Notes: a model not told the origin generated them from the letters alone. A stretch of DNA of 48,966 bases from a bacterium (GCA_028821235.1 JAPPGV010000126.1:1-48966), one strand, 5' to 3'; counted from the stretch's first letter, positions 1-12,234 are shown. A program made the numbers and translations.

Positions 1-6
1 CCAGGG

Positions 7-47
7 TGGGGAAATTCGCTGACCAACTCTGGGGAATTTCGCTGATC
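7..47. repeat. Two imperfect copies of an IS21-like terminal repeat
   Basis: Two 18-nt copies, TGGGGAAATTCGCTGACC (7-24) and TGGGGAATTTCGCTGATC (30-47), differ at two positions and start 23 nt apart. Multiple terminal repeats of the TGGGGAATTTC type are known from ends of IS21-family elements. No IstA/IstB coding sequence lies in the window, so the body of any element would be to the left. The open frame of the following nuclease-like gene runs into this block with no start codon, which supports a junction near position 46-52. The IS21 assignment rests on remembered consensus and is tentative. Confidence 0.4.
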
Positions 48-756
48 GCCATCACTCCGAGCAGAACCCCAGGAGTATTGGGAGACAGAACGCAGGGCCG
101 CACGTGTCGACACTCGACCATTCATAAAGCACGGCGAAACACTCTACATACTTCCCTGCACTTCGTCGATGACACTGGCTGTGCTATCCACGTATCTCGA
201 CGATGGTCGCCTGCCGTGGCCACCCAGGACACTCCCCGAGAATGTCAACCAGGCACTCAATAGATACCGACAGGAGAGGAACGACCAGTTCGAGAACGAC
301 TGCTACAACGCCCTCTCAATCCCAGGTCTCATAGTCCGCAAGAAAATACGACCTAGGAAAGCCAAACACCTAGGAATCGACTCCCTCTCCGGCGAGATTG
401 ACCTGTTGTGCATCAACCCAGCCCAATCACACATCTGGGTAATCGAAGCAAAGGACCCCTACATCCCATTCTCAGCTCATCGGATCAGACAACTGATAGA
501 AGACTTCCACCAACCCGGCGGATACGTCGACACATTGCTACACAAAGTCGAAGACATCCAACGAAACATCCCATCCCTCACGAGCTCCCTGAACATCACA
601 CAACCCGACAAGGATTGGCACGTCCGCGGTCTACTGGTGACCAGAACGACCAACCCAGCCGCCTTCAAGCCGAACAGCAGCGTACCCTTCAGCAACCTAG
701 CCGAACTCAGAAGCGTGATCTTGCCCGAGGAGCGTTGCGGCGAGGATCGGGGCTAG
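46..756 (+). pseudogene. 5'-truncated PD-(D/E)xK nuclease-like gene
   Basis: The first ATG is at 169, but the same frame is open back to position 46 and reads as convincing protein upstream of it (for example RPFIKHGETLYILP at about 115-156). The real start therefore lies further left and was probably lost when the IS21-like end inserted. Numbered from the ATG at 169, the C-terminal part has E42, D78 (in GEIDLL) and E93-A-K95 (in WVIEAKD), spaced as in PD-(D/E)xK nuclease folds. The frame ends with TAG at 754-756. The family and partners are unknown. The neighbourhood contains other nuclease-like genes, so a defence role is plausible. Without its N-terminus it may be inactive, or it may be expressed as a fragment from 169. 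Confidence 0.55.
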
Positions 757-920
757 TTCGTGATCCCTACACGCACACGAGACCGGCTAGGCCCGGTACC
801 AGCAGCTTTGGGCGATTGGCACCGACGTTCTCCACAGAGCCTCGGCTCCCGCCAGTGGATGGACTGGCCGCCGCACGTTACTGAGTGAGTTGAGACGAGC
901 TGGTCATGTTCAGACGGTCT

Positions 921-3461
921 CTACGAGTTGTTTCTCAACTCGGACTCAACCGCCTGGTCGTATCTACCGAGAATCTCGTCGACGGACTGGTGGAGATACA
1001 CCCTGTCGTCGTCTACCATAAGGTACCTATCTCCGATGACAGCTTGGATGCCCTTCAGGACCGCTAGAAGTCGGCTCGGTTGGAAGCTTATGAACTCCGA
1101 CTCCGGGAGACGGACTCGGGAGATCGTTGGAGCATCGTAGGGATCCTCTTTCTGAGCCTCGAGCCTTTCGAGAAGTTGGCGGACCGGTACTCGCGCCTCA
1201 GCGCTTCCGAGCTCAGACTCGAGCCACTGGAGCCAGGAGAGCACGTCTTGTCGACTGAAGTGCCCCTGTTGGTCGGAGCCGCGTTGATCCGTGCCCCTGT
1301 AGGGCCCCGCAAAGAGTTCTCGCATCGTTGGTAACGGAATGCCAAAGGACGCGTGCAAAAGAAGCAAGCGTTGCAAGTCGCTCGTCGTGAGAACAGTCGC
1401 CTGTTCCGCCTTTGCTTCTTCGTTAATCGCCGACTTGTCGTCATCTTCTCCTTGAAACTTGTCGGCGATGGCGAAAGCAAAGTCTGCTTTCTCAGTACGC
1501 TGGAATCGGTGAAGAGCGTCGAAGCGAACCCTTTCGTTTGGAACCGCTCCGCCGCACGTCTTAGCGTCGAATACAAGCTTGAAGCTTGTTCGTACACGGG
1601 ACCCCGGCGATACGCCAAGGTTGGCTTCGAGCACACCGTCGGTTCCGCCGCGACTCCCACCTCGCTTCTGATAGTCGAACCCGAGTGCTTCGAAGGCGGC
1701 TCCGGTTGCCCGTTCCATAGCAGTCTCATCGGTGCCAGCCACCGCGAGGAGACCTAGTATGTCGCCAATCACGGCCGGTTGGTCTTTCAAGAGGATTCTC
1801 AGAATCCGATCCCTGAAACGGAGCAACTGTTCTGTCTCTTGATGGGGGAGGCCGATGGCTTGGGCGAGCGCTTCCAAGAGAAGCTCTGATGCAGCGAATA
1901 GTTTCCATAGGGTCGGGCCTCGACTATGTTGAATCACATGGGCGACGTAAGGATGCTCTCGGTTTGTATGGAGGACTCTCGTTGTCGGTTCGTAGGATGC
2001 AACCGGGGCGTTTCGGCCTGCTTCTGCTAGGACAATGTCACTGATGGGTTCGTTCGCCGCGGCGGTCTCAAACTCAGCGACCCAAGCATCTAGGTCGGTG
2101 GCTTCTCCCTCGGCAGGACGTCGCAGGTAATACATCTGTGAGGAGGGGTCGGTTATGCCCCTGCGCACTGCGTCGATGAGCGGGTTAGTTACGAATCGTG
2201 ATGGAGCTTCAGCGACTAGTCGGTGAATCTCATCGCCAACCAACTGTTTGTCTAGGTACGCATTGTAGGTCCGTCTACACCTCAGGAACTTCTCTTGGAG
2301 ATACTGCTGCAGAGTGCGGGTTTCTCGCGTTTCCCTTACACCCTCACGGGAGGACTGGAGGAACTCGGTAAGTCCATCTGCTTCTACTCTGATAACGGTT
2401 CGGTGCCAGGCGGCGTGGTTTTGTACAGGAAGCCCGAAGGTCTCGTCTTCGAGGTTGACGATGCGCTGGCGAATCTTGACGAAGATGCCGTAGCTGCGTG
2501 AGTACCGGTCGGACTTGCCTCCTTCGAGCGGGCTCGGGTATACAGCTGCGTATCCTTTGATAACGCCTTTAATCCCGTCGATCGATACACTGTCTGCTGT
2601 TGCTTCGATGGAGTATTTCTCCTTCTTGAGTTTCTCCACTTCGGGGTCCTCACCGCCAAACGTGAAGCACTCGAGTGGTTCAAGGTCGACCTTAGGGCTC
2701 ACGAGGATCGAGCCATTCAGGATGATGTGGAAGTCGGTCAGGATGGGTAGACCGGTTCGGAGCACCCAACGCAGGGTGCCTACCTGAAAGTCGTCCATTA
2801 GAGGCTTGAACTCGCTCAAGGCCGCAGCGGTCCAAGTTGGCTTGGCGTTATTGCCAAAGAGATTGGACCAGACTTGATCGTCATCGCGGTCAGCGATCTC
2901 GTGGAGTAGCTCCATCGCCTCGTCCTCGGAGAGCTTTCGCAGTTGGACCTTGATTTCTCTCGATTCTTCCCACTGGTGGTGTTCCCTCACACGAGTGAAA
3001 TCCATGGACGTGGCGAGGTAGCGAGAGTCGTGTTTTGAGATGTGTGTCAGTCGCTCGGCTAGTACGTAGGCCGCAAGTTTTCCGATCCCGAACTGTCCAA
3101 TAGCGACTCGACCTTCAATGCCTGTTTCCGGATCCTTGGACTTACGCGGGTCTGCGACGTGCCACAGGTTCTCAAAACCGTGGCTGTCCATGCCTGAACC
3201 GTCATCGACCACCCATAGGGAGTCCTCGGGGTACTCTTCTCTGGGTGTGAAGATCCAGACACGCTCGGCACCAGCGTCGTAGCCGTTTGTTACCAACTCT
3301 TCCACCGCTTTGTGCGGGCTCTGGTAGAGCCCCTCAGAAAAGAGCCGGATGATCTCGTAGCTCATTCGGACGGGGATGTCATCAACCACCTCACCTGCGT
3401 CCAAGGCGAGCGGTGTGAGGCGACTTCTAGAGTGGTCGGTTGACGCGGTAGGTGTTTCCAT
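921..3461 (-). CDS. GHKL/Hsp90-like ATPase fused to a PD-(D/E)xK-like domain
   Basis: The protein has 846 residues. The N-terminal third is a GHKL ATPase: N-box EELVTNGYDAG at 54-64, G1 box DDGSGM at 86-91, and glycine-rich lid GQFGIGKLA at 122-130. The middle resembles the transducer part of Hsp90/MutL-type proteins. Near 582-665 a second domain is visible, with E583, D608 in GGTDGV and D632-A-K634 in VFDAKT, followed by an alternating hydrophobic strand (ADFAFAIAD). This order fits a restriction-endonuclease-like fold. The last 150 residues are unassigned. ATP-driven conformational change coupled to DNA cleavage is my inference. The ATG at 3461 has TATTAT about 7 nt upstream, so transcription could be leaderless. 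It lies on the opposite strand to the methyltransferase at 4446, with a decayed transposase between them. Named systems such as Mza use GHKL ATPases, but I do not recognise this architecture in one. Confidence 0.75.
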   Translation of the reverse strand: METPTASTDHSRSRLTPLALDAGEVVDDIPVRMSYEIIRLFSEGLYQSPHKAVEELVTNGYDAGAERVWIFTPREEYPEDSLWVVDDGSGMDSHGFENLWHVADPRKSKDPETGIEGRVAIGQFGIGKLAAYVLAERLTHISKHDSRYLATSMDFTRVREHHQWEESREIKVQLRKLSEDEAMELLHEIADRDDDQVWSNLFGNNAKPTWTAAALSEFKPLMDDFQVGTLRWVLRTGLPILTDFHIILNGSILVSPKVDLEPLECFTFGGEDPEVEKLKKEKYSIEATADSVSIDGIKGVIKGYAAVYPSPLEGGKSDRYSRSYGIFVKIRQRIVNLEDETFGLPVQNHAAWHRTVIRVEADGLTEFLQSSREGVRETRETRTLQQYLQEKFLRCRRTYNAYLDKQLVGDEIHRLVAEAPSRFVTNPLIDAVRRGITDPSSQMYYLRRPAEGEATDLDAWVAEFETAAANEPISDIVLAEAGRNAPVASYEPTTRVLHTNREHPYVAHVIQHSRGPTLWKLFAASELLLEALAQAIGLPHQETEQLLRFRDRILRILLKDQPAVIGDILGLLAVAGTDETAMERATGAAFEALGFDYQKRGGSRGGTDGVLEANLGVSPGSRVRTSFKLVFDAKTCGGAVPNERVRFDALHRFQRTEKADFAFAIADKFQGEDDDKSAINEEAKAEQATVLTTSDLQRLLLLHASFGIPLPTMRELFAGPYRGTDQRGSDQQGHFSRQDVLSWLQWLESELGSAEARVPVRQLLERLEAQKEDPYDAPTISRVRLPESEFISFQPSRLLAVLKGIQAVIGDRYLMVDDDRVYLHQSVDEILGRYDQAVESELRNNS

Positions 3462-3654
3462 CCTCGGAATAATAGACGAGTGCGCCCGGTCGTAGATCTT
3501 GTTCGTTCGCGAGTGTTGGGGCTGCCAGAACCAACGGTTCTAAGTCGAACTACTGTGTTCCTCTTCAGAGAAATTAGTGTTTAGTAACATACAGCAATGG
3601 AGAATCGGTAGATATCGTATGTAATGGAGATTCGGTGCTGCGGCCCAACGTCGG

Positions 3655-4013
3655 ATGTGTGGAGCAGAGACGAAACCATCGGCGGGCCCGTCGGTAGTCG
3701 AAGCCGACCGATACCACCGATCCCACGCCATTTGCGACTTTGCCGTCCGTGACCTCAAAGGCTCGGCGGGTCTCGCCCACCTCCCGTCCGGGATGTTCGC
3801 CGCTAACGCTGCCTGGCTAGCGTGCGACGCCCAGCCACAACCTCTACCGCTGGATAGCACTCGCCGGACGGACTCAACCCCCCGAAACTCGTCTACGGAT
3901 CCACCATCCGCACTCGCCTCTTCGGTTTGCCCGGACGGATCGTGAACCGCAGCGGCCTCCACATCCTACGCGTACCGTCCGATGGTCGGAACCTACCGAA
4001 CCACCCTCGGTAA
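3655..4013 (+). pseudogene. Decayed IS1380-family transposase, C-terminal remnant
   Basis: Three consecutive reading frames together spell the C-terminus of an IS1380-type transposase. Frame 1 has CDFAVRDLKGSAGLAHLPSG and then FAANAAWLACDA (about 3727-3830). A shift to frame 2 gives HNLYRWIALAG (3836 on). A shift to frame 3 gives TIRTRLFGLPGRIVNRSG and ends at TAA 4011-4013. The motif order, AIRDLK-GxGL-xxxPSGxFxANxAWL, HNLxRW, then LPGRxVNRSG, is that of the family as I remember it. Two frameshifts and the missing N-terminal two thirds show it is dead. It marks an old insertion between the GHKL-ATPase gene and the methyltransferase gene. Confidence 0.7.
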
Positions 4014-4056
4014 CCTCCGGGCTCTTCCCCAACTCTGCTAACCCGAACTGCCCCCT

Positions 4057-4108
4057 ACTATTGAATCAACCAGATCTATCCCACTATTGAATCAACCAGA
4101 TCTATCCC
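4057..4108. repeat. Perfect 26-bp tandem duplication
   Basis: Positions 4057-4082 and 4083-4108 are identical head-to-tail copies that start ACTATTGAATC and end ATCTATCCC. They lie just downstream of the decayed transposase. Perfect identity indicates a recent slippage or duplication event. I see no coding role. Confidence 0.85.
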
Positions 4109-4445
4109 AACGCCCCGCATTGTAACAATACGTCAATCTACCAAAACCCAAGATAACTCCCAGACCAGACCCCCCATCATCCATCGAGGCCTTCCGAATC
4201 AACCCACCCAGAACCCCTCGACCACCCCGACACCGCTCCCGAACCAACTCCGAGGCAAGCTAATTGGTGGATTCAGGCCTAGGGTCTGCCTGCGGCCCTT
4301 GCGACCGTCTGGCGGCCGCGGAGGTTGTGGGGAGCGCAGACTCTCGCCTAGGGCGATTGTTCTTGCAGGCAACCTTGCCGGCGGATCACCTCTCGCGTCA
4401 GAGAACAACGGGTAGCCAAGGGAGGCCCGCTACTGTCAGGTACCT

Positions 4446-5627
4446 ATGGCTGTGCGGACTATCCATCCCTTCCCGGCGCGCATGGCGCCGGAGATTGCTC
4501 TTGACTGCATCCCGGGGTCCGAACGCGGAAGAACGCAGAGGATTCTTGATCCAATGTGCGGCTCCGGGACGGTGCTCTCTGTCGCCGCCCAGCGGGGACA
4601 CCACGCGATTGGGGTTGACCTTGACCCACTGGCGATTCTGATGACGAGGGTGGCCACCAGCCCCCTTGACACCTCGCAATGTGAGCAACTGCGTGAACAG
4701 GTGGTTAACGCTGCGGCGTCGGATGGAGACGTCGAACTCCCATGGAGCGATGCTGAGACAACGCGCTTTGCCAAATACTGGTTTGCCGACGGGCAACGGA
4801 TACAGCTCGCGAGGCTTTCAAGGGTGATTAACGACCTTCCCGCAGGCCCGCTTCGCGCACTAGCCCAGATATCTCTAAGTAGGACTGTAATAACGAAAGC
4901 ACCCAAAGCGTCTCTCGCAGCTGATACCTCTCACAGTCGACCCCATCGAGTGTCGACCACATCCGACTACGACGTGATCGCCGGATTCTCGCTGGCTATT
5001 GCCGACCTCGCCAGGCTTCTTGAGGGTCGCCGCTTGACCGGTTCCACGGAGGCCCACCTTGGCGATTGTCGCGTTCTTGACCGTGTAGCGTCGGCAAGCA
5101 TAGATATGGTCGTCACATCACCACCATACTTGAATGCGATTGATTACATACGGGGACACAAGTTTGCGCTGATCTGGCTTGGATATTCGATTCCTGAGCT
5201 CCGGGCTATCCGCTCATCAAGTATCGGGGCTGAGCGAGCCCTCGACTGTCCAGCTGAGGCTGAGGCCGGTGCACTCGTAGCTCGGATAGAGCGCGATGCG
5301 GTTGACGCCGCCCGGCTACCGATGGGAATACTGACTCGCTACGCGCACGATATGCTCCTCTTTGCCAGGCAGATGAAGCGTGTTCTGAGACCGGAGGCGC
5401 GACTGATACTGGTGGTTGGGAATTCGACGCTCCGCGGAAACTTCATACGTAACGACTCGCTCGTAGAACGGGCCTTGCAGCACTATGGGTTCAGCACCGA
5501 GCGGAGCACGGAACGGACTCTGCCTGAGAACAAGCGCTACCTCCCGATTAGAACGGCTGAGCCTTCCTCATCCATAACTCGGCGGATGCGCACGGAGACG
5601 ATTCTGCACATGGTTGCACCCAAGTGA
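4446..5627 (+). CDS. Site-specific DNA amino-methyltransferase (N4-cytosine or N6-adenine type)
   Basis: The protein has 393 residues. The SAM-binding motif I is DPMCGSGTV at 35-43, followed by the acidic GVDLDPLA at 56-63. The catalytic motif IV is TSPPYLNAIDY at 224-234. The roughly 180 residues between them could hold the target-recognition region. The N-terminal HPFPARMAPE (8-17) is typical of a family of TSPPY methylases often found in restriction-type loci. It should transfer a methyl group from SAM to an exocyclic amino group in DNA. The specificity cannot be read from sequence. No clear Shine-Dalgarno precedes the ATG at 4446. It may protect DNA from the GHKL-nuclease protein encoded divergently, or it may be an orphan left after the IS1380 insertion. 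Confidence 0.85.
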   Translation: MAVRTIHPFPARMAPEIALDCIPGSERGRTQRILDPMCGSGTVLSVAAQRGHHAIGVDLDPLAILMTRVATSPLDTSQCEQLREQVVNAAASDGDVELPWSDAETTRFAKYWFADGQRIQLARLSRVINDLPAGPLRALAQISLSRTVITKAPKASLAADTSHSRPHRVSTTSDYDVIAGFSLAIADLARLLEGRRLTGSTEAHLGDCRVLDRVASASIDMVVTSPPYLNAIDYIRGHKFALIWLGYSIPELRAIRSSSIGAERALDCPAEAEAGALVARIERDAVDAARLPMGILTRYAHDMLLFARQMKRVLRPEARLILVVGNSTLRGNFIRNDSLVERALQHYGFSTERSTERTLPENKRYLPIRTAEPSSSITRRMRTETILHMVAPK

Positions 5628-5759
5628 CGACCGAGAGGCCGCCGTCAACCGTGCCTTGGTCGATGTGGGACAGAGTGTGGGGCGGATAGTGTTGTTATGA
5701 CTATCTACCTGGGGTTTTAGACGGACTCATAAGCTCCGCGCCGTGGGGCAGCGAGTTCT

Positions 5760-5922
5760 AGGACCGGTCCGCTCGTGCTTCGGGGATCCGACTCGTGGAG
5801 GCTGGTAGCGACCAAGAAGGGTCAATTGACTCCGTTCTCTGGGTGGAGCGTCGAGCCCGACTAGTTGAATGGCCGTAGATGGGATCGCAAGGTCGAGCGC
5901 ATCCGAGAGTTCGTCGGCTTTG
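5760..5922 (+). repeat. Diverged long direct repeat, copy A
   Basis: This stretch aligns along its length with 8407-8566. Shared blocks include GACCGGT, TGCTTCGG, GCGACCAA-AAGGG, GTTCTCTGGG, AGATGGGAT and GGTCGAGCGCATC. I estimate by eye roughly 70% identity with small gaps. The copies bracket the lipoprotein and vapBC genes. Its 3' part (GGTCGAGCGCATCCGA and TTCGTCGG) looks like the D-arm and T-stem of a tRNA with the anticodon arm lost. Confidence 0.6.
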
Positions 5923-6208
5923 GGTTGGATTGGCGGACGATCCGGTTAACGGTGTGGGCGGGACTACGTTTGTCTGTGGCCTCACCTTGACCAATAACTG
6001 GAGGCCTCCGCGTGCGTGTAGGAGACGTTCGGGCGTTAGGCTCCCCGCCGGAGATCCATGGATCGGGTGGTGTCAGTAGTCCGGCCGACAGCGCCGAGCA
6101 GGAGGGCTGGACCCCAGACTCGGCGGTTTCATTCGAAGTCGCTATAACACTTGAAGTAACATTCAACGAAAGTTAAAGGCCCTCTGACCTCGGGTTATAG
6201 GGGTATCT

Positions 6209-6235
6209 GGCGGTTCGAGCCCGTCAACGCCCACA
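6209..6235 (+). other. tRNA 3'-end-like remnant
   Basis: GGCGG-TTCGAGC-CCGTC has a 5-bp stem (one G-T pair) around a 7-nt TTCRANY-type T-loop, followed by AACGCCC-A, as in the acceptor strand of a tRNA. No matching 5' acceptor strand lies within about 100 nt upstream, so it is not a functional tRNA gene. Such 3' pieces are typical of tRNA-targeted integration sites. A similar 3' end (CCCGTCAATGCCCACCA) occurs at 8578-8594. Confidence 0.35.
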
Positions 6236-6332
6236 GTGGTCCACGGCCGGGACCTGTCCCGTCGATGCGGAACAGCACGCTCACGGCGATGTTGTCTCCT
6301 CCGACGCCGCCGGGTGGCTGATGCGGGGTGGT

Positions 6333-7223
6333 TCAGCCTTCTGGGCTTTCGGGGCCGCTCAGCAGGGCCATCTCTTCTGGTGTGAGGCATCCGAGCATCG
6401 CGGCCACGATTGTCTGTTCCGCGGCCATAGCGGCGTCAGCGTTGTTCTCGTCGGTGCCGTTTTCGTCGGGTGCGGTCTCGCTGAGGGCGTCGACTTGTTC
6501 CGCTACACACGCGGCGCTCTCTGGTGAGACCCCAACCGAGATCAGTTGTGCTGCTGTGAGCCTGCCAGCCGCTGTCTCGGCTTGGGAAGCGCCGGTCTGA
6601 GGCAGACAATCCGGAGGCAGCACCAGATTGAGGACAACCCCGAGATCCCCGCCGAACAAGGCGACGTCTGCGGCGACCCGGTCGGTCTCTGCGCTGGGGG
6701 CCGCTGCCTGGGCGCATTCGAGTATCGCCGGTGGCACATCGGGGAGGTCTTGCAGCGAGTCAAGGATGGTCTGTGTCCATGGCAGGCACCCGACGGCAGC
6801 GTCGACGATCCGATCACGTTCGGAGTCCGAAACGACACCGGCGGGCAGCACACCGTAGGACGGCCCGGCGAGCGCAGCGACGACTTCTGAGAGGCGCTCC
6901 TCGTCGAGGGTGTCGACTGTCGCGGAGGCCACACACGTGATCTGTTCGTCGCTGATGCTTTCGGGAGCGTCCTCCGCTAAGCGGGCCGCGACGGCGAGTT
7001 CTGCTTCAGCGCGCACCAGCGACGGTTCCCCGACCGTCGTGGTGGTGGTGCTCGCCGGTGGTGCTGCGGTGGTGTTGGACACGGTGGCGGCCGTGGTGGT
7101 CGCTGGTTCGATCACCTCCGGCTGGGACGGTGGCACCGTAGACGGTTGAGGCTCCGTGTCGCCGCCACACGCGGAGACTGCAAACACGGCGACAACTGCT
7201 ACGCGAAGGAAAACATGCTTCAT
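6333..7223 (-). CDS. Putative secreted lipoprotein of unknown function
   Basis: I chose the ATG at 7223 (296 aa) because MKHVFLRVAVVAVFAVSAC is a lipoprotein signal peptide. The upstream extension to 7295 adds an unlikely N-terminus. The lipobox VSAC has Cys19. A low-complexity Pro/Thr/Ala linker (about 21-65) follows, as in many actinobacterial lipoproteins. The mature part has repeated short blocks with paired acidic residues and single cysteines (for example ITCVAS, VGCLPW, LECAQ, PPDCLP, AACVAE, LGCLTPEE), suggesting a repeated helical unit with disulfides. I do not recognise the family. It should be anchored on the outer face of the membrane. It converges on the methyltransferase gene and is not linked to the catabolic genes. 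Confidence 0.7.
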   Translation of the reverse strand: MKHVFLRVAVVAVFAVSACGGDTEPQPSTVPPSQPEVIEPATTTAATVSNTTAAPPASTTTTTVGEPSLVRAEAELAVAARLAEDAPESISDEQITCVASATVDTLDEERLSEVVAALAGPSYGVLPAGVVSDSERDRIVDAAVGCLPWTQTILDSLQDLPDVPPAILECAQAAAPSAETDRVAADVALFGGDLGVVLNLVLPPDCLPQTGASQAETAAGRLTAAQLISVGVSPESAACVAEQVDALSETAPDENGTDENNADAAMAAEQTIVAAMLGCLTPEEMALLSGPESPEG

Positions 7224-7550
7224 ACGGCGACTATAGAGACGTGTCGACGCGTAAGTGACGCGGGAAGGTAGCCCGTTGCGGATGGTGACGGCCACTCTGA
7301 GCAGGATCTCGCGTACCAGGTCCCGGGCGAGCGCCTTGCAAGTTGCTTCTGGTGGTCCCGGGACGGGCCTCTCGTAGACGCATCCCAGCCGTGTTGGCTT
7401 TGAACACCCTCGAAACGCCAGCTCCCCCGAACCCGCACCGACACTAAGTTCCGAGCCCAGACACTGAGGTCTTACGCGGTCTGTCAGTCATCCCTCAGTT
7501 ATCCCGAAAGCCCATGACAGCAAGGCATCACTTGATGCTATGCTGTCAGA
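7224..7550. promoter_or_regulatory. Divergent intergenic region between lipoprotein and vapB
   Basis: About 330 bp separate the divergent lipoprotein gene and vapB. No gene is visible. The only clear element is the vapB operator at 7515-7548. No strong promoter or Shine-Dalgarno can be picked out for the lipoprotein gene. Confidence 0.4.
7515..7548 (+). promoter_or_regulatory. vapBC palindromic operator overlapping a leaderless promoter
   Basis: The 16-nt arms TGACAGCAAGGCATCA (7515-7530) and TGATGCTATGCTGTCA (7533-7548) are inverted repeats with 14 of 16 pairs matching, around a 2-nt centre. The right arm contains TATGCT (7539-7544), a -10-like hexamer 6 nt before the ATG at 7551, and ATGACA at 7514-7519 is a -35-like hexamer. 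The transcript would then start at or near the ATG. VapB-type ribbon-helix-helix antitoxins bind such palindromes as autorepressors, so this is the expected autoregulatory site. Confidence 0.7.
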
Positions 7551-7805
7551 ATGCGGACTACAGTCACACTTGACTCCGACACAGAACAGATCGTCCGCCA
7601 GCGCATGACCGAACGTCGGGTCTCTTTCAAGCAGGCATTGAACGACCTGGTCCGCGAGGGCCGGGGTTTTGCTGATGGGCTCCACCAGTTCAGAACAACG
7701 ACCCGGCCGATGGGACGCGCCAAGGTCGATCTCGACAAGGCGCTACGTCTCGCCGGCGAGCTCGAGGACGGCGAGGTTGCCAGGAAGCTAGAGACCGGAT
7801 CTTGA
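7551..7805 (+). CDS. vapB: VapB-type ribbon-helix-helix antitoxin
   Basis: The protein has 84 residues. The N-terminal MRTTVTLDSDTEQIVRQRM is a short beta strand followed by helix, typical of ribbon-helix-helix DNA binding. A second helix (about 26-38, FKQALNDLVREG) completes the fold. The C-terminal tail from about 45 should wrap around and inhibit VapC. The ATG lies 3 nt after the palindromic operator, so translation is probably leaderless. The stop overlaps the TTG start of the toxin gene by 3 nt within TTGA, indicating translational coupling. Confidence 0.85.
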   Translation: MRTTVTLDSDTEQIVRQRMTERRVSFKQALNDLVREGRGFADGLHQFRTTTRPMGRAKVDLDKALRLAGELEDGEVARKLETGS

Positions 7806-8230
7806 AGCTCGTAGATGCCAATGTCCTGTTGTACGCCGTCAACCGAGACGCTCTCCGGCATGCCTCGGCCCGGAGCTGGCTTGACGAGGCGCTCAGCGGC
7901 GGCGCCCGGGTGGCGTTCTGTTGGGTGGTGCTGCTGGCGTTCCTGCGGCTGTCCACCAACGGACGCATCTTCGACGAGCCGCTGTCCGCAAGCGAGGCGA
8001 TCGCACAAGTCGAGGACTGGCTGGCTCAGCCCTCGGCCGTAGTTGTAGAGCCGACGGCACGCCACCTCGGGATCGTCCAACAACTGCTGGCCCCGCTTGA
8101 GACAGGCGGCAACCTCGTCAACGACGCCCACCTGGCTGCCCTCGCCATCGAACACCGATGCGCAGTCGTGTCCTACGATACGGACTTTCTGCGCTTCCAC
8201 AGCGTGAAGCTGGAGACCCCAACAACCTAA
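7802..8230 (+). CDS. vapC: VapC-type PIN-domain ribonuclease toxin
   Basis: The protein has 142 residues and starts with TTG at 7802. The PIN motifs are D5 in KLVDANVLLYAV, D108 in LVNDAHLAALA and D126/D128 in VVSYDTDFLRF. LLAFLRLSTN (44-53) occupies the place where many PIN domains carry a conserved Glu. The A46 found here is, as I recall, common in one actinobacterial VapC subfamily, so I do not call the toxin dead. It is expected to cleave RNA in a Mg2+-dependent way when freed from VapB. It is coupled to vapB by a TTGA overlap. A diverged direct repeat lies downstream (8407 on). Confidence 0.88.
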   Translation: MKLVDANVLLYAVNRDALRHASARSWLDEALSGGARVAFCWVVLLAFLRLSTNGRIFDEPLSASEAIAQVEDWLAQPSAVVVEPTARHLGIVQQLLAPLETGGNLVNDAHLAALAIEHRCAVVSYDTDFLRFHSVKLETPTT

Positions 8231-8406
8231 GAAACCAGCAAGGTGTCATGCCGAGTTGTCGGTATATCCACCGGCGAGTCCTGGGACGGGAGTCTTCCCC
8301 GCCTTGAGACGAGCGTCCACTCAACGGGTCAACCTCACGCTGACACCGGCGAGAGTTTGTTTGCTAGCTGCGTCCTTCCCCAAAGGCAGCAACGCGCAGA
8401 GTCTGA

Positions 8407-8566
8407 CCGGACCGGTTCATTCCTGCTTCGGAGGAGCCCACTCCTGGGCTGATCGCGACCAACAAGGGCCCCTTGATCTCGTTCTCTGGGCAGACAACGA
8501 GGCCGACCAGTAGGGCGGCCGCAGATGGGATGGCACGGTCGAGCGCATCTGAGATGTCGTCGGTTC
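8407..8566 (+). repeat. Diverged long direct repeat, copy B
   Basis: This is the homologue of the copy at 5760-5922, in the same orientation. The shared blocks are listed there. The two copies are about 2.6 kb apart and flank the lipoprotein and vapBC genes. Confidence 0.6.
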
Positions 8567-8594
8567 AAGTAGGATCTCCCGTCAATGCCCACCA
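8535..8594 (+). other. tRNA-like remnant with broken arms
   Basis: GGTCGAGCGCATCTGA (8538-8553) resembles a tRNA D-arm and the start of an anticodon stem. GTCGGTTCAAGT (8559-8570) resembles a T-arm. CCCGTC-AATGCCC-ACCA (8578-8594) resembles the T-stem and acceptor end with an encoded CCA. The anticodon loop is missing and about 8 nt interrupt the T-arm, so this cannot be a working tRNA. It shares its 3' end with 6221-6234 apart from one base. Confidence 0.35.
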
Positions 8595-8680
8595 GCCTTG
8601 TTCCCGCTTGACAGGGCGTTTTCGCCTGTTTCGGGGTATCACCTACTGAACCATCCAACTCGTGAGAAGGGACCATCCTT

Positions 8681-9721
8681 ATGGCCGCTGACAGCAGGGA
8701 CTCTCTTCTAGCCCACCTGGCCGGGAAATTCACCGGGCAGACCGAGACCCTCGCCACCGAGGCGCTCGGTTACATACTCTCTCGATCTGGTGCTGCTCGA
8801 GAGGCCCTGCGGGAGATGCTCCAGGACGGCGGCGCGGACGTGGGGGCTCTTAAAGAGGTGGCGACCGAGGTCATCGGAGAGCAAGGGGAGCGGGTGGATC
8901 TGGTCGCTTCCGACGAAAAGGGCTCGGAGCGGGTACTCATAGAGGTGAAGTTCTGGGCCGGCCTCACCGACAATCAACCCAGCACGTATCTGAAGCGTCT
9001 TCCAACAGACGGAGACCCCGCCGTTCTGCTCTTCGTCGCGCCGGAACAGCGGCTGGTGACCCTCTGGGTGGAGATTTGCGGTAGGGCCAGAGAGGCCCGT
9101 TGGGACTTGGAAACCGACGCAGGCACGGAGGAGTTGAAGAGTGTCACAGTCGGTGGCGGCCCACGCAGATTGATGCTCACGAGTTGGCGGACGTTGCTAG
9201 CCGCGATGTCGTACCGCGCCGGTAAGGGCAGCGATTCAGCCGCCGAGCGGGACATCCAGCAATTGGCGGCGTTGTGCGAACGCCAGGACCGGGACGCTTT
9301 CCTGCCGTTGCGTTCGGACGAGTTGGCACCCGCATTCCCCAGACGGATGCTGGACATGGAGAGGCTCTGGAAGGATGCTACGGCACGGGCGGTTGAACGT
9401 GGACGGGAGCTCGGACGTCCATTCGTGAACACGGACGGAACGGCTGTCGCTCCCCAGTGGCACGGATCCGGTAGACACATTCAGATCGGGAAGGAGGACG
9501 CCTGGTGGGGTGCTTGGTTTGGTGTTCACTACGAACTCTGGGTCCGGGAGAGAGAAACCCCTCTCTGGCTTACCTTCTGGGATGATCATGCGCCGGCGGC
9601 GGAGAAGAAGCTGGGCAGTCAGAACTGTGGTTTCACGCTGCCTGTAGATGTGGAATACGGCAGGGTCCTTGATTCCGTCGTAGAAGAGTTGCAGAAGATA
9701 GCGCACACGCTCAGCAGTTGA
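8681..9721 (+). CDS. PD-(D/E)xK nuclease-superfamily protein
   Basis: The protein has 346 residues, with an ATG preceded by AAGGGA 7 nt upstream. The N-terminal 170 residues fit a PD-(D/E)xK fold: E22/E27 on the first helix, D73 in GERVDLVA, E88-V-K90 in VLIEVKF, then N98-Q99 in DNQPSTYLKRLP. The second half (190-346) has conserved-looking aromatic patches (EDAWWGAWFGVHYELWV) and may be a target-recognition or partner-binding region. I do not recognise it. Families of this layout occur as stand-alone genes in defence islands. The EEP-family gene follows 92 nt downstream on the same strand. No methyltransferase is adjacent. Confidence 0.7.
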   Translation: MAADSRDSLLAHLAGKFTGQTETLATEALGYILSRSGAAREALREMLQDGGADVGALKEVATEVIGEQGERVDLVASDEKGSERVLIEVKFWAGLTDNQPSTYLKRLPTDGDPAVLLFVAPEQRLVTLWVEICGRAREARWDLETDAGTEELKSVTVGGGPRRLMLTSWRTLLAAMSYRAGKGSDSAAERDIQQLAALCERQDRDAFLPLRSDELAPAFPRRMLDMERLWKDATARAVERGRELGRPFVNTDGTAVAPQWHGSGRHIQIGKEDAWWGAWFGVHYELWVRERETPLWLTFWDDHAPAAEKKLGSQNCGFTLPVDVEYGRVLDSVVEELQKIAHTLSS

Positions 9722-9813
9722 AGGAGCGTCCGACGAGCCAGGTGGGTTGGCCTGTCACACCCGGTGGATAGGCTCGGGGTGGAGTAGATCCTTGAGCGAG
9801 CCAGGAGGCTGAG

Positions 9814-10677
9814 GTGGGTACGACCGTAGTGTGTTGGAACATCGCCAAGCGCCACAACGCGTGGCGCGAGTTGGTGCAGATGGACGCTGACGTGGCTCTG
9901 TTGCAGGAAGCAGGCCGATACCCCGCTGACATAGTCTCGAAGGTGGACATCGGCCCCCGCGAACACTGGGACTCCCACTACTGGAACTCGGAGTGGTACG
10001 GAGACAGGTTCCGGTGGCTGCTGGAGCGGTGGCCGATGGTGGTGAAGCTGTCGGACCGGGTCGAGGTCGAGTGGTTCAAACAGGTCAGCCCGATCAGCAT
10101 GACAGGCGAGGACGAGATCGCGGTCAGCGGGATCGGAACCATCGCCGCCGCGCGTATCGTTCCCCGAGATGCCGAACCGTTCATAGCGGTGTCCATGTAC
10201 GCCCGCTGGATGAGCCCGCACCCGTCCACCAAGACCTCATGGAAGGTGGGTTACCCCGACGGGTCGGCGCACCGGATCATCTCGGACCTCTCGGCCTTCA
10301 TTGGAGGCACGGACCCCAGCACGCATCGCATCCTGGCCGCCGGTGATCTCAACATGGCGTTCAGCGGCAAGGACGACGACCCGTTCGTACTGCGAGAACG
10401 TACAGTGACCGACAGGATGGATGTGCTCGGCCTCGAAATGCTTTACGCGGAAGGCCGGAAAGCAGACCCGACCCCCGATGACCTCCCGGCCGACACCCGC
10501 AACGTGCCCACCTATCACACCACGAGCCAAACTCCAGCAACCGCCACGAGTCAACTCGACTGGGTGTTCGCCTCACAGGGCTTCCACAACGGCATCACCG
10601 TGCGCGCCCTCAACGAAGTCGAAGAGTGGGGGCCAAGCGACCACTGCCGGCTCCTCATCGAATTCGCCGGCGACTAA
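9814..10677 (+). CDS. Endonuclease/exonuclease/phosphatase (EEP) family protein
   Basis: The protein has 287 residues and begins with GTG at 9814 behind a strong AGGAGG (9803-9808). The EEP catalytic set is complete: N9 in CWNIAK, E32 in LLQEAG, D178 and N180 in AGDLN, D249 in SQLDWVF, and D276-H277 in GPSDHCRL. Members hydrolyse phosphodiester bonds in DNA or RNA, or phosphate esters, using Mg2+. There is no signal peptide, so it acts in the cytoplasm. The substrate cannot be inferred. Together with the preceding PD-(D/E)xK gene it forms a possible two-nuclease unit at the edge of the accessory region. It ends 52 bp from the convergent SDR gene. Confidence 0.82.
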   Translation: MGTTVVCWNIAKRHNAWRELVQMDADVALLQEAGRYPADIVSKVDIGPREHWDSHYWNSEWYGDRFRWLLERWPMVVKLSDRVEVEWFKQVSPISMTGEDEIAVSGIGTIAAARIVPRDAEPFIAVSMYARWMSPHPSTKTSWKVGYPDGSAHRIISDLSAFIGGTDPSTHRILAAGDLNMAFSGKDDDPFVLRERTVTDRMDVLGLEMLYAEGRKADPTPDDLPADTRNVPTYHTTSQTPATATSQLDWVFASQGFHNGITVRALNEVEEWGPSDHCRLLIEFAGD

Positions 10678-10729
10678 CTCGTAGGCATCGAAGGGCGTCG
10701 GTCAGCGGTCCCGTAATCACCGCCGAGCG

Positions 10730-11515
10730 TCAGATCTTGTAGCCGCCGTCGACGTCCAGTACTTTCCCGGTGATGTACGCCGCCTCATCGGAGGCGAGGA
10801 AGCAGACAGCCCGGGCCACGTCGTCAGCCGTACCCGGCCTGCCCAAGGCAATGTTCCCGGAGGCGTCGGCGAGCATCTCCTCGGTGAAGTCGCCCCGGGC
10901 GACGAGCTCGTGATACATGCCGGACGCCATCAAACCGGGGCCGACAGCATTTGCGCGGACCCCGAACCGACCTTCTTCGGCTGCTATCGCCCGGATGAGG
11001 GCCTCCACCGCCCCCTTGGGAATCGCCGATAGCGAGTCTTTGACCGGATACCGTCGCACGGCCATCGACGTGACGGCGACGAACGATCCCGACGACTCGC
11101 GAACGTGGGGCAGCGCGGCCCAGACCAGATGGAATGCTCCGAAGAGGTCGACGTCCACCTTCTCTCGGAATAGCTGAGGATCGATCTGGCTGACGTATCG
11201 CATCGGAACGTACGGCCCCGCTGCGGAAACCGCAGTGTGGATGCCACCGTGGAGTTCCGCAGCCGAGTCGACGAAATCCTTGACGGCGTCGGCATCGGTG
11301 ACGTCCACCTGGCCGACCGTGACCCTCGAGCCGGCAGCCTCGACGGCCGCAGCGACCTCTGCAGCAGCCGCCTCGTTCCGGCCGTACGTGAAGGCAATGT
11401 CGCTGCCGCGCGACGCCAGCAGCGTGCACACGGCCGAGCCGATGCCTCCCGAGCCGCCCGTAACCACGGCGGTCCCTGGCCGCCCGGAGAAGTCACTCGC
11501 GGTCCGCGGTGGCAC
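10730..11515 (-). CDS. Short-chain dehydrogenase/reductase lacking the catalytic Tyr
   Basis: This is a 261-aa protein if translation starts at the GTG at 11515, whose first base is the last base of the upstream stop codon (TAGTG). A start at 11563 would overlap the upstream gene by 49 nt. The Rossmann motif TGGSGGIG is at about 19-26, and the C-terminal VLDVDGGY is typical of classical SDRs. In the active site the usual YxxxK reads SAIPK, so the catalytic Tyr is replaced by Ser while the Lys stays. The Ser-containing TSMA stretch is present. It is either a non-oxidoreductase member or uses altered chemistry. It is the last gene of the long minus-strand run. Confidence 0.8.
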   Translation of the reverse strand: MPPRTASDFSGRPGTAVVTGGSGGIGSAVCTLLASRGSDIAFTYGRNEAAAAEVAAAVEAAGSRVTVGQVDVTDADAVKDFVDSAAELHGGIHTAVSAAGPYVPMRYVSQIDPQLFREKVDVDLFGAFHLVWAALPHVRESSGSFVAVTSMAVRRYPVKDSLSAIPKGAVEALIRAIAAEEGRFGVRANAVGPGLMASGMYHELVARGDFTEEMLADASGNIALGRPGTADDVARAVCFLASDEAAYITGKVLDVDGGYKI

Positions 11516-12234
11516 TATGGATTCTCCAGTGCTGCGATCAGGCCGTTCGCGCCCGCCAACCATGCCGCGACGCCGGCGAACGGTATGGCGCAGGCCACCG
11601 CTTCGGTGAGCTGGCCCGGCGTCGCGCCGCCCTTGAGGGCGAAGCGGGCATGGATCTCTACGAAATCGTCGCGGAACTCGGCCGCGTTTATTGCACAGAG
11701 CATGAGATCCGCCAACCGGTTTTCGAGCGGAGACTCCTCCAGAGCCGCCTGACGCATGAGGTAATAAGCGATTACGACTCCGGGAGCATGCTGAGCACCC
11801 AGGGCGACATTGGCGGGAACCTCACCGTAGAGCCCCCGGTAGTAGTCAAGGAGTTCGTCCATCGAGACCTCGGTCTCGAAAGGCGGTCCAGGGCTCACAC
11901 CGACGTCACTTATCGCCGCTAGAGCCTCGGTCAAGGCTTGGTAGCCCGGAATTCCGCGTGATATCAGCACGTTGAGTGCAGCCCCGTGGACCTCATCGGG
12001 TGTCATACCGCGGTCCATCGCAATGGTCAGGTACTTGGAAGTCACCTCGGGAAGCCGTTTCACGGCACCTATCACGGCGGCACAAAGGGCCTTGTCCCGG
12101 GCCGGCAGGGCTCCGTCGGAATGGATCACGTCGGCCGCACTCGCCAGTCCTTCGGCAAACTTCGGTGATCCCGCGACCAGTCCTTCGGCCCAGGCCGCCG
12201 GACCCAGCATCTCGATCAGTCGTTGTGTGTCCAT
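11515..12234 (-). CDS. Carboxymuconolactone decarboxylase/AhpD-like family protein, two repeats
   Basis: This is 239 aa from the ATG at 12234 (MDTQRLIEMLG). The reading frame is open further upstream but reads as non-protein. Two helical CMD-like halves are visible: about 40-105 (ARDKALCAAVIGAVKRLPEV, EVHGAALNVLISRG) and about 150-235 (ENRLADLMLCAINAAEF, AVACAIPFAGVAAW). The AhpD-type CxxC is absent, so a peroxidase role is unlikely. A similar two-repeat protein is encoded at 33329-34087. Members of this family often sit in catabolic clusters with poorly defined roles. It is followed by the SDR with a 1-nt stop/start overlap. Confidence 0.75.
   Translation of the reverse strand: MDTQRLIEMLGPAAWAEGLVAGSPKFAEGLASAADVIHSDGALPARDKALCAAVIGAVKRLPEVTSKYLTIAMDRGMTPDEVHGAALNVLISRGIPGYQALTEALAAISDVGVSPGPPFETEVSMDELLDYYRGLYGEVPANVALGAQHAPGVVIAYYLMRQAALEESPLENRLADLMLCAINAAEFRDDFVEIHARFALKGGATPGQLTEAVACAIPFAGVAAWLAGANGLIAALENP

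Follow-up and report, generated by a model that had tools for sequence, protein, structure and literature searches.

Do the two genes lying between positions 921 and 5,627 of a 48,966-nucleotide stretch of bacterial DNA (GCA_028821235.1 JAPPGV010000126.1:1-48966; the whole stretch is called the window below) form a restriction-modification (R-M) system? One encodes an 846-aa protein with a GHKL-type ATPase followed by a putative restriction nuclease, the other a 393-aa DNA methyltransferase (MTase), and an initial annotation of the window had proposed a restriction-like system. We conclude that the two genes probably constitute an ATP-dependent, type II-like R-M system, in which the MTase would mark the host DNA and the 846-aa protein would cut unmarked DNA, as a defence against DNA from outside. 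This reading is founded on what sequence alignments and structure models show: the domain make-up, the conservation of the catalytic residues and the repeated pairing of the genes.

Domains and catalytic residues of the fusion protein

Residues 48-169 of the 846-aa protein match HATPase_c_3 in Pfam (expectation value, E, 8.5e-20), and in 37 relatives the N box (E54 E55..N59..D62 A63), the G1 box (D86-x-G88) and the G2 box (G122-x-F-G-x-G-K-L129) are invariant, in agreement with the intact GHKL ATPase described initially. An AlphaFold2 (AF2) model built from the 37 aligned relatives has a predicted local distance difference test score (pLDDT) of 79.6 and a global predicted template modelling score (pTM) of 0.48; because the latter is low, the arrangement of the domains was not taken from the model. 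Residues 32-409 are modelled in a GHKL+S5 fold, for which the best solved structure is MORC3 (Z 17.4, root-mean-square deviation 5.1, 303 aligned), followed by MORC4, SMCHD1, MORC2 and Hsp90, all within about 1-1.5 Z (MORC3/4 and Hsp90, Z 16-17); the fold matches from structure libraries covered the GHKL module only. With the three boxes in the sequence and the S5 domain in the modelled fold, the protein belongs to the MORC-like GHKL+S5 ATPases.

The D-x23-D-A-K pattern noted in the initial annotation (D608-x23-D632-A-K634) is present, and it is no chance motif, since E583 and K634 are invariant in 37/37 relatives and only D or E occurs at positions 608 (D in 22, E in 15) and 632 (D in 30, E in 7). 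In the AF2 model residues 579-706 follow the order helix, three strands, helix, strand, helix, strand, helix (helix 579-592, strands 596-599, 609-617 and 624-633, helix 647-656, strand 661-666), which is that of PD-(D/E)XK nucleases. A profile of the nuclease domain (residues 562-716, 32 members) was run against the PDB and gave HindIII as the sole significant match (E 2.4e-4), with the family D-A-K aligned on the D-A-K of HindIII. The conserved catalytic residues, the order of elements and the HindIII match together support a predicted active restriction-fold nuclease in the C-terminal part, where the initial annotation had advised looking for a PD-(D/E)XK fold. The remaining residues, 717-846, are poorly conserved and possibly form a DNA-binding winged helix, to judge from a weak match to WH_MCM3_C in the relative L008 (E 0.06).

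The methyltransferase and its recurrent pairing with the nuclease

The adjoining gene, on the opposite strand, encodes the TSPPY DNA methyltransferase recognized initially: the motif DPMCGSGT (motif I, residues 35-42) is followed after ~185 aa by TSPPY (motif IV, residues 224-228), so that the S-adenosylmethionine motif I precedes the target-recognition region and the (D/S)PPY motif in the order of the alpha class. The protein matches N6_N4_Mtase/UPF0020 in Pfam and MTase_II in PADLOC (E 7e-25), and its AF2 model has a pLDDT of 90. Between motifs I and IV it retains the residues that are invariant in the family alignment (W112, S145, K151, S156, D160 and R165-P166-H167), and one could imagine, as a suggestion, a DNA target shared by the MTase family. 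The sole near-characterized relative found is a protein of the Deinococcus radiodurans plasmid pCP1 (26% identity; family-profile match E 1e-33), which from its location and motifs is probably M.DraR1 (DR_C0020), an enzyme of a small D. radiodurans plasmid with alpha-class order and SPPY that modifies C4mCGCGG (PMC6712171). It is the SPPY motif and the similarity to the probable M.DraR1 that make N4-methylcytosine the probable product of the window MTase. Apart from the low identity, the two differ in their partners, R.DraR1 being a GIY-YIG enzyme (PMC10855626) instead of a GHKL-nuclease.

The MTase alignment was used to scan ~85,000 species genomes, which yielded 143 relatives, and the 80 best-scoring ones (not a random sample) were kept. 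A full GHKL-nuclease gene is directly adjacent to the MTase gene in 35 of the 80, and a shorter GHKL/histidine-kinase protein is encoded beside it in 8. Among the 35 adjacent pairs, 34 are on the same strand and 24 overlap or are ≤5 nt apart. They span about nine phyla as read from record titles, several records being metagenome-assembled genomes (Actinomycetota, Pseudomonadota, Gemmatimonadota, Planctomycetota, Chloroflexota, Spirochaetota, Rhodothermales, Verrucomicrobiota and Bacillota). The GHKL-nuclease occurs in ~1% of sampled genomes (4/346, 1/398, 2/277 and 5/281, the last three including the centre genome), and against such rarity the adjacency in 35/80 excludes a chance neighbourhood. 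In a reverse sample of six GHKL-nuclease genes, picked independently of the MTase, two adjoin the same MTase family, two a related one and two none (short flanks). A restriction-fold nuclease gene thus adjoins a DNA methyltransferase gene with conserved adjacency, as in type II R-M systems. With both the fold and the co-occurrence across phyla found, the restriction-like system proposed initially stands as the best reading; what that proposal missed is that the window pair is rearranged and apparently recombined, with a transposase fragment in its spacer.

Two further observations count in favour of R-M. VcSduA (GHKL Shedu, type I-D; formerly paraMORC3), a GHKL-PD-(D/E)XK protein, has been shown by experiment to be anti-phage, with ATPase and nuclease both required (PMC12137116). 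The viral contig L114 carries a GHKL-nuclease gene (3374-5998) together with an MTase gene (5995-7143), and its neighbours look Mu-like by eye (GemA-like, portal/terminase-region proteins). The nuclease was carried by none of the phage records searched, and neither a genome-contig scan with the nuclease alone nor a viral scan with alignment A1 returned relatives, the back-translated patterns being probably unsuited to such divergent relatives; the MTase-anchored scan succeeded where the nuclease-only scan gave nothing.

We propose that the MTase would mark the host recognition sites, probably with N4-methylcytosine, and that ATP binding would dimerize the GHKL heads of the fusion protein. By analogy with MORC, Hsp90 and VcSduA, the S5 part would then clamp the DNA, and its closure would gate the HindIII-like PD-(D/E)XK nuclease, which would cut DNA without the mark, presumably at unmethylated sites. 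If this is true, the family would represent a restriction enzyme that is compact, widespread and gated by ATP, its nuclease being controlled by an Hsp90/MORC-type clamp and not by a helicase motor, and would tie the MORC ATPases that act in eukaryotic gene silencing to a simple, testable bacterial enzyme.

Table 1. Features of the two-gene locus (window coordinates)
Feature	Coordinates	Strand	Evidence
GHKL-S5 ATPase / PD-(D/E)XK nuclease fusion	921..3461	-	ORF (open reading frame) of 846 aa; HATPase_c_3; AF2 model; 37-member family
GHKL ATP-binding domain (Pfam extent, residues 48-169), N/G1/G2 boxes inside	2955..3320	-	Pfam match, family alignment
PD-(D/E)XK nuclease region, residues 562-716 (E583, D608, D632-A-K634), predicted	1314..1778	-	AF2 element order; HindIII profile match; Mrr_cat in L010
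C-terminal helical/beta-hairpin region, residues 717-846	924..1313	-	AF2 secondary structure; weak WH_MCM3_C; poor conservation
IS1380-family transposase fragment (3' part), between the two genes	3697..3945	+	tblastn
Amino-methyltransferase, alpha-class motif order, 393 aa	4446..5627	+	N6_N4_Mtase/UPF0020; PADLOC MTase_II; AF2; profile match of the probable M.DraR1

Competing explanations and the rearranged pair in the window

Several observations weigh against the R-M reading. Among the 37 members scanned, a Pfam nuclease match was obtained in a single one, L010, whose nuclease domain matches Mrr_cat weakly (E 0.0012), and no separate DNA-recognition domain was identified in the 846-aa protein. 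Mrr_cat also occurs in modification-dependent enzymes, and a type IV-like nuclease that cuts DNA carrying a foreign modification, beside an MTase with some other purpose, could be argued from this match. Such an enzyme is very unlikely here, as HindIII, which is of type II and whose cutting is blocked by cognate methylation, gives the stronger profile match, and the nuclease is tightly linked to one MTase family.

The members L010, L102, L117 and L118, which lie outside the MTase-anchored sample, have the GHKL-nuclease without such an MTase alongside. Together with VcSduA, in which a GHKL domain likewise precedes the PD-(D/E)XK nuclease and which works alone, and with the quite different modules that the MTase partners elsewhere, they speak for a stand-alone anti-phage nuclease that would sense some feature of phage DNA or replication, the MTase being separate or accessory and without a role in specificity. 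We assign this explanation a low probability, because the nuclease adjoins the MTase in 35 of the 80 relatives, mostly as overlapping genes, and because SduA_C is matched by no member and a small Shedu profile fails to align with the nuclease.

The window pair itself departs from the usual arrangement. Its genes are on opposite strands and 984 bp apart, as against the same-strand order of 34/35 pairs, and they are separated by an insertion sequence remnant, a fragment that matches annotated IS1380 transposases of actinobacterial plasmids (E down to 3e-9, tblastn) and of which no second copy was found in the genome. On the MTase tree the window enzyme is placed within an actinobacterial clade (Streptomyces, 54% identity). 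Its partner nuclease, with support 100/100, clusters at 40-41% identity with the clade of L057, a canonical overlapping pair from Actinomadura nitritigenes, and a tree joining the window nuclease to the nucleases of the actinobacterial MTase clade is rejected by the approximately unbiased test (p 7e-62, a value obtained with some long branches and a comparison group that does not hold together in the nuclease tree). With nuclease and MTase from different sub-lineages, the pair looks assembled by recombination; the opposite strands and the insertion sequence remnant add to this, and the two proteins may therefore be non-cognate. A family of R-M systems, with the window copy a remnant, broken or non-cognate, of an IS1380-linked rearrangement, would account for these features and for the six near-invariant nuclease positions that are altered (62/68 retained), most of them by conservative substitutions. 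Both reading frames are complete, however, no catalytic residue is lost, and 85/86 near-invariant positions are intact in the MTase. A free nuclease lacking a protective MTase is, moreover, expected to be lost quickly. We hold a remnant to be improbable, and the window pair may still be a cognate, working one. The spacer also contains, downstream of the transposase fragment, a ~27-bp tandem duplication (actattgaatcaaccagatctatccc twice; window 4057-4111).

Precedents, alternative partners and neighbouring genes

The initial statement that no comparable system could be named was too strong, since GHKL-nuclease fusions are known in paraMORC3 (PMC2292703) and VcSduA (PMC12137116), and NCBI lists BbrUII/HgiDII as a family of GHKL-type type II restriction enzymes. 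In the accessible text of Iyer, Abhiman and Aravind (2008, PMC2292703), paraMORC1-5 are GHKL+S5 ATPases in R-M loci beside methylases, and paraMORC3 carries a C-terminal E-D-ExK nuclease after GHKL+S5. The present protein, compared by architecture only, has the same order with an E-D-(E/D)xK nuclease; the two-gene pairing with the present MTase family is not described in that text. VcSduA is likewise a single protein with N-terminal GHKL, clamp-like middle and C-terminal PD-(D/E)XK nuclease, but its nuclease is of the DUF4263/SduA_C type and it is described as working without an MTase. SduA_C (PF14082) is matched by 0/37 members at E <= 0.01, and a Shedu profile of three sequences, itself weak, gave no match to the present nuclease. 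Members of BbrUII/HgiDII (NCBIfam NF050001) are type II restriction enzymes that likewise have an N-terminal GHKL-type ATPase and are partnered by an MTase; the window protein scores 52.6 bits against the curated 550-bit cut-off, over residues 45-172 only (the GHKL part). Their partners are 5-methylcytosine MTases (PMC5867850), whereas the window partner is a TSPPY, N6_N4_Mtase amino-methyltransferase without C5 methylase motifs. Mza, which spreads a MORC-like ATPase and a Z1 protein over several genes, and other MORC/Z1 systems also have a GHKL ATPase of the MORC-like type among their defence genes, and some relatives' loci have a Z1 helicase nearby; here, in contrast, ATPase and nuclease are fused, and a Z1 protein is absent from window 1-10500. 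With a paraMORC3-like architecture, no Shedu domain, a score far under the BbrUII cut-off and an amino-methyltransferase partner, the family is best filed as a variant of GHKL-type R-M, its parts having precedents in VcSduA, HgiDII/BbrUII and the paraMORCs. At the locus L009 (G040 C63), which resembles the Mza type, a related GHKL protein is represented by its N-terminal part at the contig end, next to Vsr-like, C5 methylase, NaeI-like, Z1 and DUF4420 genes.

Elsewhere the MTase family has other partners. In some loci its neighbour is a Z1 helicase (PADLOC Helicase_II, E 3e-48), in many cases accompanied by a protein of ~150 aa; both lie directly before the MTase at L060, L064, L066, L068, L071, L075, L083, L085 and others, and the small protein (alignment A8), to which no function is assigned, has conserved K-x-S-x-x-R-x-x-P-W and C-G-x-D-G motifs. 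In others it occurs with a GHKL/histidine-kinase protein, a second MTase and another gene. The loci L020, L021, L023, L030, L039, L041, L056 and L089 encode a GHKL protein that carries another, histidine-kinase-like HATPase at its C terminus, together with a partner of ~410 aa, and they resemble the HEF_HK/Response_reg_2 loci (PMC8011034). A third conserved set, consisting of a sigma-70-like protein, a ~140-aa protein, an M78 peptidase, a ~415-aa protein, a HerA-like ATPase (which matches mad8 too) and the MTase, is present at L033, L034, L035, L042, L049, L076, L080, L084 and others, and may be a MADS-related defence system.

On a quick tree of the MTases the GHKL-nuclease label changes 14 times, and at least seven of the changes are forced by well-supported branches, so that partner exchange is frequent. 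A tentative and rather doubtful extension is that the one MTase family, with its strongly conserved target-recognition region, writes a single self-mark recognized by four or more effector modules that are interchangeable (the GHKL-nuclease, the Z1 helicase with the small protein, the histidine-kinase paraMORC with a response regulator, and the HerA/sigma-like module), and that bacteria swap effectors and keep the mark, the window being a fresh recombinant. The recurrent switching of partners at least allows one to ask whether different effectors read the same DNA mark.

Other genes of the window include, at the contig edge, a 195-aa PD-(D/E)XK-like ORF (169-756, + strand; GEIDLL...VIEAKD) that matches HEC-02B and Upx weakly and may be the terminal portion of a larger gene, broken or truncated; it gave no alignment with the nuclease domain of the 846-aa protein. 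No Rfam families were found in window 1-12000. At 7551-8230 (+ strand) a small ORF overlaps a PIN-domain gene (E 5.8e-16) in a VapBC-like toxin-antitoxin pair, and 8681-9721 (+ strand) encodes a further possible nuclease, of 346 aa, which matches PDDEXK_4 weakly (E 0.00056).

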